Positions 19,932 through 21,490 of a stretch of DNA of 21,490 nt are shown here, piece after piece. The notes under the pieces are model-generated. The model saw only the letters and a list, made by a program, of their open reading frames with translations. It did not search any database and was not told where the DNA came from. Source of the stretch: a virus; IMG/VR virus record IMGVR_UViG_3300030451_006234, positions 2,809-24,298 of that record; one strand, 5' to 3'. The position numbers and the translations under genes were made by a program. Each line of letters starts with the position of its first letter. Positions within the stretch are counted from its first letter, which is position 1.

Positions 19932-20111
19932 ATGTTTAATCTAACCCAAAAAGCAAAAGATCACTTCTTAAATTTCTTTAAGAGTGAGGATCAAAAAGAA
20001 GAAGAGTTCAAAGACTTCTTAAAAGCAGAGTACAAGAAAGATTGGAAAGCTGCCTACGCTTGGTTCAAAGAAGAAGGTTCTCTTCCTAATTTTATTCGTC
20101 GAACTCTTTAG
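19932..20111 (+). CDS. Small charged helical protein of unknown function
   Basis: A 59-residue protein. ATG 19932 is chosen because AAAGGAAA (19917-19924) then sits at a normal distance; an in-frame ATG at 19914 would place that ribosome site inside the gene. The product is a run of Lys/Glu/Phe-rich helices (KAKDHFLNFFKSEDQKEEE, then YKKDWKAAYAWFKEEG). No known family. Its end overlaps the leftward zinc-finger gene tail to tail by 20 nt. Confidence 0.5.
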   Translation: MFNLTQKAKDHFLNFFKSEDQKEEEFKDFLKAEYKKDWKAAYAWFKEEGSLPNFIRRTL

Positions 20112-20253
20112 GTTTGACACGATCGAGCTCACCCCGTCCGTCACAAAAGGGACAGGGTAGCTTCTCGATCTTCCCCGTGCCGTGGCATTCGATACAGACA
20201 CGGACGTTATAGTTCATCTGTTCTTTTTTGTAGTTTTCTTGTTGGTTATTCAT
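20092..20253 (-). CDS. Second DnaJ-type zinc-finger mini-protein, leftward
   Basis: A 53-residue leftward ORF from ATG 20253, beginning MNNQQENYKKEQ. It contains CIECHGTGK (from residue 20) and CPFCDGRGELDRV (from residue 34), two CxxCxGxG motifs only ten residues apart. The four cysteines with glycines make a chance ORF unlikely even though it is short. The ribosome site is weak (AAGAGA directly before the ATG); the internal Met13 is a possible alternative start. It resembles the rightward mini-protein at 18328 in motif but not elsewhere, so they are related by fold rather than by recent duplication. Confidence 0.7.
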   Translation of the reverse strand: MNNQQENYKKEQMNYNVRVCIECHGTGKIEKLPCPFCDGRGELDRVKPKEFDE

Positions 20254-20565: not shown

Positions 20566-20814
20566 ATGGAGATGGTAAATGTCGTTTGGTTGGATACAAA
20601 TGAATGCACCTTATCTGGTTGGCAGAGCAAAGAAGAGCTGCTATCAAGTAAACCTTGCACTGTTTCTTCACTTGGATATTTAATTAAAGAGGATAAAGAT
20701 AATATTACCATATCGGCAGACAAGGACCACTACGACGAAGATGATTTATTTGGACGGGCCCAAGTCATACCGAAAGGTGTTGTAATAAAGATAGAATTCT
20801 TAAAGGCTATCTAG
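20566..20814 (+). CDS. Small conserved phage protein of unknown function
   Basis: An 82-residue protein beginning VNVVWLDTNEC after two Met codons (20566 and 20572). The middle, VSSLGYLIKEDKDNITISAD, and the end, QVIPKGVVIKIEFL, follow the pattern of a small beta-barrel-like protein (W-L-D, S-x-G-x-L, I-P-K) found in many phages and usually unannotated. It converges with the methyltransferase and overlaps its end by 15 nt. Function unknown to me. Confidence 0.6.
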   Translation: MEMVNVVWLDTNECTLSGWQSKEELLSSKPCTVSSLGYLIKEDKDNITISADKDHYDEDDLFGRAQVIPKGVVIKIEFLKAI

Positions 20815-21490
20815 TCCTTCTATCTGTTTGATACAATTTGCAATCATAAAAGGAATTTGAGGTACTAAACTATTGCCTAGCGCTTTAAGTCTGTCCACCC
20901 TGTTGGGTATCCCATGAGCCACTCGACCCACGTCGGGTTCAAACTCCCACCATCCGACCCTCTCTTCGCTACTGCTACATTCAGATTTGTCCCCTTTCGT
21001 CGAAATTGACTCGGACCTCCATTGTTCTTTGAGTCGTTCACTGTCGGAGTTGGCCACATTTCCCTCTCTGCCACTTTCATTCCCAAACTGTGACCCCTCG
21101 TTTTCCCCACTGAAGGTGGAACTTTGCTCACCGAGTCTTTCCAATCTCTCGCGTTGGGAGTTGGCCACATTAAGTTTGGATGTGCTACTTGATCGTTCAG
21201 ACTGATTGGCATTCCCTTTTCTAATTTCATTTTCATTCTCTTTTCTGAACTCGGTCCCCTCCCACAATGGGCGTCCGGAGTGCGCCAAAACCCAGATTCT
21301 TTCTCTTTTGTGGTTTGCGCCGACGCTAGAAGCTGAAATACTAAACGTCCTCGTGGAGTAACCTTCACTTTCCAAGTTCTCGAGTACGGTGTCGAGACCT
21401 TGTTTAACATGTCCACTAACATTTTCTCCAATGATCCAAGTTGGTTTGAGTTCTTTGACAAGTCTAAAATACTCCGGCCATAAATGTCTC
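20800..21490 (-). CDS. DNA (cytosine-C5) methyltransferase, C-terminal part, runs off right edge
   Basis: The leftward frame is open to the window edge (PEYFRLVKELKPTWIIGENV), so the gene begins outside; about 229 residues are visible. Conserved C5-methylase motifs are present: GENV (motif VI; ENV codons at 21418-21426), VGANHKRERIW (motif VIII, QRRER-like), and at the end LKALGNSLVPQI (motifs IX/X region). The catalytic PC motif (IV) lies upstream of the window. Between motifs VIII and IX a target-recognition region contains LAHS and two NVANS segments. The enzyme would methylate cytosine in phage DNA against host restriction (established role of the family; target unknown). The same DNA carries a second long frame. 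Confidence 0.9.
   Translation of the reverse strand, partial: RHLWPEYFRLVKELKPTWIIGENVSGHVKQGLDTVLENLESEGYSTRTFSISASSVGANHKRERIWVLAHSGRPLWEGTEFRKENENEIRKGNANQSERSSSTSKLNVANSQRERLERLGEQSSTFSGENEGSQFGNESGREGNVANSDSERLKEQWRSESISTKGDKSECSSSEERVGWWEFEPDVGRVAHGIPNRVDRLKALGNSLVPQIPFMIANCIKQIEGLDSL
20877..21490 (-). CDS. Overlapping long frame inside the methyltransferase gene (WPTP / LNPTWVEWLMGYPTGWTD type)
   Basis: In the frame shifted by one base from the methyltransferase, and on the same strand, an ORF is open from the window edge to a TAG at 20877. Its sequence includes TWKVKVTPRGRLVFQL, GFWRTPD, two MWPTP segments, GGPSQFRRKG and the ending LNPTWVEWLMGYPTGWTDL. I recall proteins with these exact features from phages, often annotated as methyltransferase-related. 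Both frames therefore look like real proteins. The likely gene product is the methyltransferase; expression of this one (by an internal start or frameshift) is unproven. Confidence 0.35.
   Translation of the reverse strand, partial: DIYGRSILDLSKNSNQLGSLEKMLVDMLNKVSTPYSRTWKVKVTPRGRLVFQLLASAQTTKEKESGFWRTPDAHCGRGPSSEKRMKMKLEKGMPISLNDQVAHPNLMWPTPNARDWKDSVSKVPPSVGKTRGHSLGMKVAEREMWPTPTVNDSKNNGGPSQFRRKGTNLNVAVAKRGSDGGSLNPTWVEWLMGYPTGWTDLKR

Follow-up and report, generated by a model that had tools for sequence, protein, structure and literature searches.

A C5-cytosine DNA methyltransferase (MTase) gene at the end of a viral contig carries a second gene in its +1 frame. Among the relatives of this locus both frames are selected, the internal start of the second gene is conserved, the MTase frame (frame 0) is without a recognition domain or motif IX, and the +1 protein carries cassettes whose number and order vary. 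It is close to certain that both genes are real. From sequence comparison we consider it quite probable that this one gene gives rise to a two-subunit C5-MTase, with a specificity subunit nested in the gene of the catalytic subunit.

Two open frames at the end of a viral contig

The window, the whole stretch of DNA that was analysed, makes up the final 21,490 bases of a virus record 24,298 bases long, and the overprinted locus lies at its very end on the minus strand. An earlier reading, made from the sequence alone, had described two frames open for over 600 bases at the methyltransferase end, and this was borne out: frame 0, encoding the C5-cytosine MTase, is open over 20800-21489 (minus strand, 229 codons) and the +1 frame over 20877-21488 (minus strand, 203 codons). 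The paired readings given with it were also exact, in that LAHS/VANS/VANS in one frame is WRTP/WPTP/WPTP in the other, and GRVAHGIPNRVDR is read as WVEWLMGYPTGWT one base on. The contig ends within both frames, and the window therefore contains neither protein's start. Frame 0 matched PF00145 (2e-13) and phrog_363 (7e-38), and the +1 frame matched phrog_1008, named 'DNA methyltransferase', at 1.5e-27 over residues 3-201, its whole visible length. The features of the locus are listed below.

20800..21489, minus strand: frame 0, C-terminal part of a C5-cytosine DNA methyltransferase (putative large, catalytic subunit), by PF00145 and phrog_363; N-terminus off the contig
21418..21426, minus strand: frame 0 catalytic motif VI (ENV), from the sequence; invariant in the relatives' alignment A6
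21292..21309, minus strand: frame 0 motif VIII (KRERIW), from the sequence; last conserved frame 0 motif before the linker
20902..21279, minus strand: predicted frame 0 linker replacing the target-recognition domain, rich in S, E, G, R and N; from rates (0.87), composition and the L004 model, where most of residues 193-260 have a pLDDT under 50
20827..20901, minus strand: frame 0 motif X (RVDRLKALGNSLVPQIP...), by hhalign to canonical positions 327-355
20877..21488, minus strand: +1 frame nested second protein (putative small subunit), by phrog_1008 (1.5e-27), relatives and purifying selection; 5' end off the contig
20877-20879, minus strand: +1 stop codon
21330..21377, minus strand: conserved beta-hairpin segment of the +1 protein, TWKVKVTPRGRLVFQL, from alignment A2; two strands in the L004 model
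21168..21287, minus strand: +1 cassette 1 (WRTPDAHCGRG...AHPNLM), in the biggest cluster of cassettes, which single linkage has made broad (170 members)
21057..21167, minus strand: +1 cassette 2 (WPTPNARDWKDS...AEREM), from the sequence and the cassette pattern of relatives
20946..21056, minus strand: +1 cassette 3 (WPTPTVNDSKNN...GSDGG), from the sequence and the cassette pattern of relatives
20889..20942, minus strand: +1 C-terminal segment LNPTWVEWLMGYPTGWTD, aligned to C5-MTase motif IX by hhalign with a weak E-value, above 150 of 150 column-shuffled nulls

Two other ORFs were noted in the window. One of 53 codons (MNNQQENYKKEQMNYNVRVCIECHGTGKIEKLPCPFCDGRGELDRVKPKEFDE; 20092-20253, minus strand) has two CxxCxGxG zinc-binding motifs of the DnaJ type, and the other, of 82 codons (20566-20814, plus strand), converges on the MTase gene, sharing the final 15 bases of the latter.

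Stop codons in the +1 frame of relatives

Using the +1 protein we found 80 viral relatives, the best of them 57-63% identical to the window's +1 protein over its full length. Both frames were open across the compared overlap in all 80, and the +1 frames of the full-length relatives among them ranged from 205 to 585 codons. Because this set was chosen by the +1 frame, a second set was picked solely by the MTase N-terminal region, upstream of the overlap. Nearly all complete genes of the second set had a +1 frame that stays open from roughly motif III until shortly before motif X, and a +2 frame full of stops. Within a fixed region of 48 non-redundant genes there were 11 stops in the +1 frame versus 194 expected from synonymous-codon shuffling, with 38 genes lacking any, while the +2 control over the same region gave 500 versus 490 expected. 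Across 169 non-redundant genes there were 0 stops in the +1 frame versus 998 expected, but the region in that count is bounded by the +1 stop, so that the fixed-region figure is the cleaner of the two. A separate, more distant clade of enterobacterial phages, which also contains other phages, had a single +1 stop in 69 genes (232 expected), and none of 46 ordinary C5-MTases from two phyla had an open +1 frame. The openness of the +1 frame is not a product of chance.

Selection in each frame

Frame-resolved substitution rates were calculated for 358 relative pairs with our own OLGenie-like script, using dNN/dSN for frame 0 and dNN/dNS for the +1 frame; the pairs share sequences, so that the bootstrap intervals are too narrow. 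Before the +1 start, frame 0 gave 0.23 and the +1 frame 0.89. In the overlap up to motif VIII (motifs IV-VIII) the values were 0.215 and 0.436, in the recognition region 0.87 and 0.43, and after the +1 stop 0.26 and 1.21, and the in-gene controls on either side of the overlap behaved as expected. The enterobacterial-phage clade gave, for frame 0 and the +1 frame respectively, 0.26 and 0.96 before the +1 start, 0.18 and 0.56 in the overlap to motif VIII, 0.87 and 0.63 in the recognition region, and 0.19 and 0.88 after the +1 stop. The +1 protein is under purifying selection exactly from its start to its stop, and across the recognition region it is the +1 frame that is constrained, frame 0 being close to neutral. 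The second frame shows more purifying selection than the first frame imposes, as is the mark of a genuine overlap.

Codon positions were compared in 212 close pairs. Changes per codon at frame 0 positions 1/2/3 were 0.141/0.104/0.288 before the +1 start, the pattern of an ordinary gene, then 0.280/0.138/0.144 in the recognition region and 0.151/0.141/0.378 after motif X begins. The fastest position in the recognition region is frame 0 position 1, which is the third position of the +1 frame and changes about twice as fast as frame 0 position 3. This pattern bears on the possibility that only the MTase is selected, the +1 frame being open by passive inheritance or its database family being made up of misread frames. 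Databases do hold some misread frames, and the annotation of one Salmonella phage, W5_chr3 (L242; PP996006.1 36061-36990), gives only the +1 frame as a gene and omits the MTase frame. Passive inheritance is contradicted by the doubled rate at +1 third positions, by the strong depletion of +1 stops and by a +1 dN/dS of about 0.43 inside the bounds of the +1 gene and about 1 outside them, and we regard this explanation as extremely improbable. Passive conservation from the MTase frame is rejected by the codon-position and frame-resolved rates with their in-gene controls, and a recurrent database of misread frames, which the sequence-only reading had offered as one of two explanations, is refuted by rates and stop depletion as far as computation allows. 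Its other explanation, overprinting maintained in two frames, is upheld by the frame-resolved rates, the stop depletion and the conserved internal start; the per-frame rate comparison on homologues that it had proposed found constraint in both frames, not confined to that of the methylase. It had also named, as a sign against overprinting, homologues of the second frame that always overlap an intact methylase and have frequent stops; in the loci examined they did overlap an intact methylase, but without the stops.

A conserved internal start

In relatives with the whole gene, a ribosome-binding site and a start codon, both conserved, mark the +1 start close to MTase motif III. A Shine-Dalgarno sequence (5-6 base match, correctly spaced) with an ATG or GTG in the +1 frame was present in 94 of 167 genes, whereas 100 synonymous shuffles gave 19 on average and 29 at most. 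Many marine relatives have AAAGGAG, seven bases and then ATG or GTG, relatives from Bacillota often have AAAGGAG, seven bases and ATG, and some subgroups are without a clear Shine-Dalgarno or start site. In 15-codon sliding windows the suppression of position 3 sets in just past the +1 start. The +1 protein therefore has its own start in the relatives; the window's copy runs off the contig end, so its start is not visible there.

The sequence-only reading had suggested that two products might come from one gene by a second start or by a programmed frameshift. The first is favoured over the second because constraint on the +1 frame begins at the start codon and because of the excess of Shine-Dalgarno and start-codon pairs. 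A frameshift from frame 0 into the +1 frame, possibly with a return, would yield a single fused polypeptide carrying the recognition cassettes. It would fit a frame 0 with the catalytic motifs and a +1 frame with the recognition-like cassettes, and no in-frame fusion was seen among 205 matches to WxEWLMGxP. A single switch does not predict the joint constraint on both frames over motifs IV-VIII, nor would it place the onset of constraint at a conserved Shine-Dalgarno/ATG site, and we hold a frameshift to be very unlikely.

Frame 0 as an incomplete methyltransferase

Motifs I, IV (PCQ), VI (ENV) and VIII are invariant in the alignment of relatives, and the window's frame 0 shows only motifs VI, VIII and X because the contig ends. 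When frame 0 was aligned by hhalign to ordinary C5-MTases, motifs I-VIII matched canonical positions 27-203 (E 6e-47) and motif X (GNxxxP) matched 327-355, with nothing aligned between VIII and X. A strict pattern for canonical motif IX found no frame 0 match in 169 genes, against 22 of 46 ordinary MTases. Ser, Glu, Gly, Arg and Asn abound in the linker of the window's frame 0. AlphaFold2 input alignments were made with rows from annotated records left out, and the frame 0 model of a close relative (L004) has a catalytic core mostly at pLDDT >90, a motif X at roughly 80-96 and, at residues 180-260, a coil mostly below 50; the model superposes on M.HhaI over ~172 columns. Alignments and model together indicate that frame 0 is without a recognition domain and motif IX in the same polypeptide, and that its linker is poorly conserved and predicted to be disordered.

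Cassettes and C-terminus of the +1 protein

The +1 protein is laid out as an N-terminal domain, cassettes starting W/L-x-T-P and a C-terminal segment resembling motif IX. There are 1-6 tandem WPTP cassettes per protein, and the 420 cassettes cut from 164 genes formed 106 clusters and 127 architectures in which number and order vary. The WPTP repeats were also considered as repeats at the DNA level, which was ruled out: every one of the four bases occurs at the third position of their Pro and Thr codons, so the protein is what is conserved. In one relative (L081:2899-4110) a helix-turn-helix-like insertion, TAKELAEKTGIKKTTVEHWF, lies between +1 cassettes with frame 0 open across it, and has weak matches to helix-turn-helix families and a type II MTase model (Pfam 0.03, PADLOC 0.0075).

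The +1 proteins of the two clades are homologous (E 1e-31), and end in LNPxWVEWLMGYPxGWTD in the window's clade and in LNPAHSRWLMGYPPEWDD in the enterobacterial clade. In both, the best hhalign match of this C-terminus was to canonical motif IX (RRLTxRECARLQGFPDxF, about 302-323 of 390), with E values of 0.1 and 0.15 that are not significant alone, yet stand above 150 of 150 column-shuffled profiles for each clade. The +1 protein had nothing significant in Pfam, NCBIfam, PADLOC or the PDB. Modelled alone it gave a poor structure (mean pLDDT 64, pTM 0.32), which would suit a subunit that folds together with a partner, and a fold search with this model returned no match.

With no structural or sequence match to fix its function, and with a start site of its own, the +1 protein could be real and selected but have a role apart from the MTase enzyme, for example regulating the MTase or acting on host defence. 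In no inspected locus was it found away from an MTase, what it seems to supply is exactly what frame 0 is missing, and the frame 0 recognition region is nearly neutral; such a separate role we judge unlikely.

Distribution and annotation

In named bacterial genomes we collected 80 loci, from Bacillota, Bacteroidota, Pseudomonadota, Synergistota, Actinomycetota and others. Wherever such a locus was inspected, an MTase held the +1 match in its +1 frame, and no standalone +1 protein away from an MTase was seen. A family search of one phylum found 2 of 149 genomes, one being the centre, and a search of control genomes found none of 14. In the phylum of G003, 15 of 249 sampled species genomes (~6%) had a phrog_1008 match; most of the 15 read as the same overlap, a few loci being too short or weak to read. 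Five apparently identical overprinted MTase loci (L192-L196) were seen in one metagenome-assembled Roseovarius chromosome (OX638333.1), and Desulforhopalus singaporensis has four contigs with overprinted MTases (L169, L170, L222 and L223), in two near-identical pairs.

The +1 protein has already been recorded as an ORF, being the same protein as phrog_1008, the 'g55 internal gene' of Paenibacillus phage Shelly, a nested ORF annotated without explanation, and the 'Mte8-like protein' of Escherichia phage K1G, where ORF30 is annotated inside methylase ORF31, again without explanation. The phrog_1008 name, 'DNA methyltransferase', is silent on its being a second frame. Three families under that name, phrog_1008, phrog_31772 and phrog_10223, appear to be built from the overprinted +1 frame. 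The literature searched yielded no analysis of function or selection for the phrog_1008, Shelly or K1G ORFs, and no description of the nested gene in phages.

Comparison with known methyltransferases

The multispecific C5-MTases of Bacillus phages (SPbeta/SPR type) have several tandem recognition modules between motifs VIII and IX, in frame. The tandem modules are alike in the present family, but here they lie in the +1 frame. M.EcoHK31I carries its small-subunit gene within the large-subunit gene but in a different frame, and M.EaeI has a similar arrangement. M.EcoHK31I (YGGCCR), a two-polypeptide C5-MTase, is the nearest known relative, likened by its described motif layout. According to the account of it in the M.SssI paper (PMC3404938), its large subunit has motifs I-VIII and X and a predicted recognition domain, while the small polypeptide carries motif IX. 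As in M.EcoHK31I, motifs I-VIII and X are placed on the large polypeptide of the present family and, by the weak E-value match, a motif IX-like segment on the small one, but the family differs from that account in that the recognition region appears in the nested subunit. A recognition domain in the large subunit was not found here, the frame 0 region being near-neutral and predicted to be disordered and the +1 frame constrained. Also unlike M.EcoHK31I are the 1-6 tandem cassettes and the occurrence in phages and prophages of many phyla. M.AquI (CYCGRG) resembles the family, as read here, in being a C5-MTase of two parts, one catalytic and one with recognition and motif IX; as described in the same paper (PMC3404938), its motif X is also on the small subunit and its variable region is shared out across both polypeptides. 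The present family retains motif X in frame 0, and its second gene is entirely nested. New here are the breadth of the family, which spans phages and prophages from many bacterial phyla, and the location of putative recognition cassettes in an overprinted frame.

A proposed two-subunit enzyme

The two proteins are likely subunits of one enzyme, in which the hidden +1 protein would most likely supply the part that recognises which DNA sequence to methylate. Frame 0 would give the catalytic subunit, with motifs I-VIII, a flexible linker and motif X, and an internal second start, preceded by a Shine-Dalgarno sequence of its own, would give the +1 protein, with its N-terminal domain, one or more interchangeable cassettes that may read the DNA target, and the motif IX-like segment. 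The two proteins would then assemble into an active enzyme, the number and type of cassettes setting which sequences are methylated, and its purpose would probably be to protect phage DNA from host restriction. On balance we lean towards a broader statement, that this is a phage and prophage C5-MTase family whose whole specificity resides in an overprinted +1 subunit of tandem interchangeable cassettes, the reference frame having decayed to a linker. Counting against the two-subunit model are the poor model of the lone +1 protein and its lack of a fold match, the weak E-values for motif IX and the weak helix-turn-helix matches, as well as the prediction, in the account given by PMC3404938, of a recognition domain in the large subunit of M.EcoHK31I.

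Long same-strand overlapping genes selected in both frames have rarely been documented in prokaryotes, and the overlap here is kept over 200-580 codons in phages and in genomes across many phyla, flanked on both sides by controls within the gene. If the two-subunit model is true, it would explain a class of 'DNA cytosine methyltransferase' without a recognisable recognition domain and would put right annotations in which just one of the two frames is reported, and a nested gene carrying methyltransferase specificity would become directly testable.
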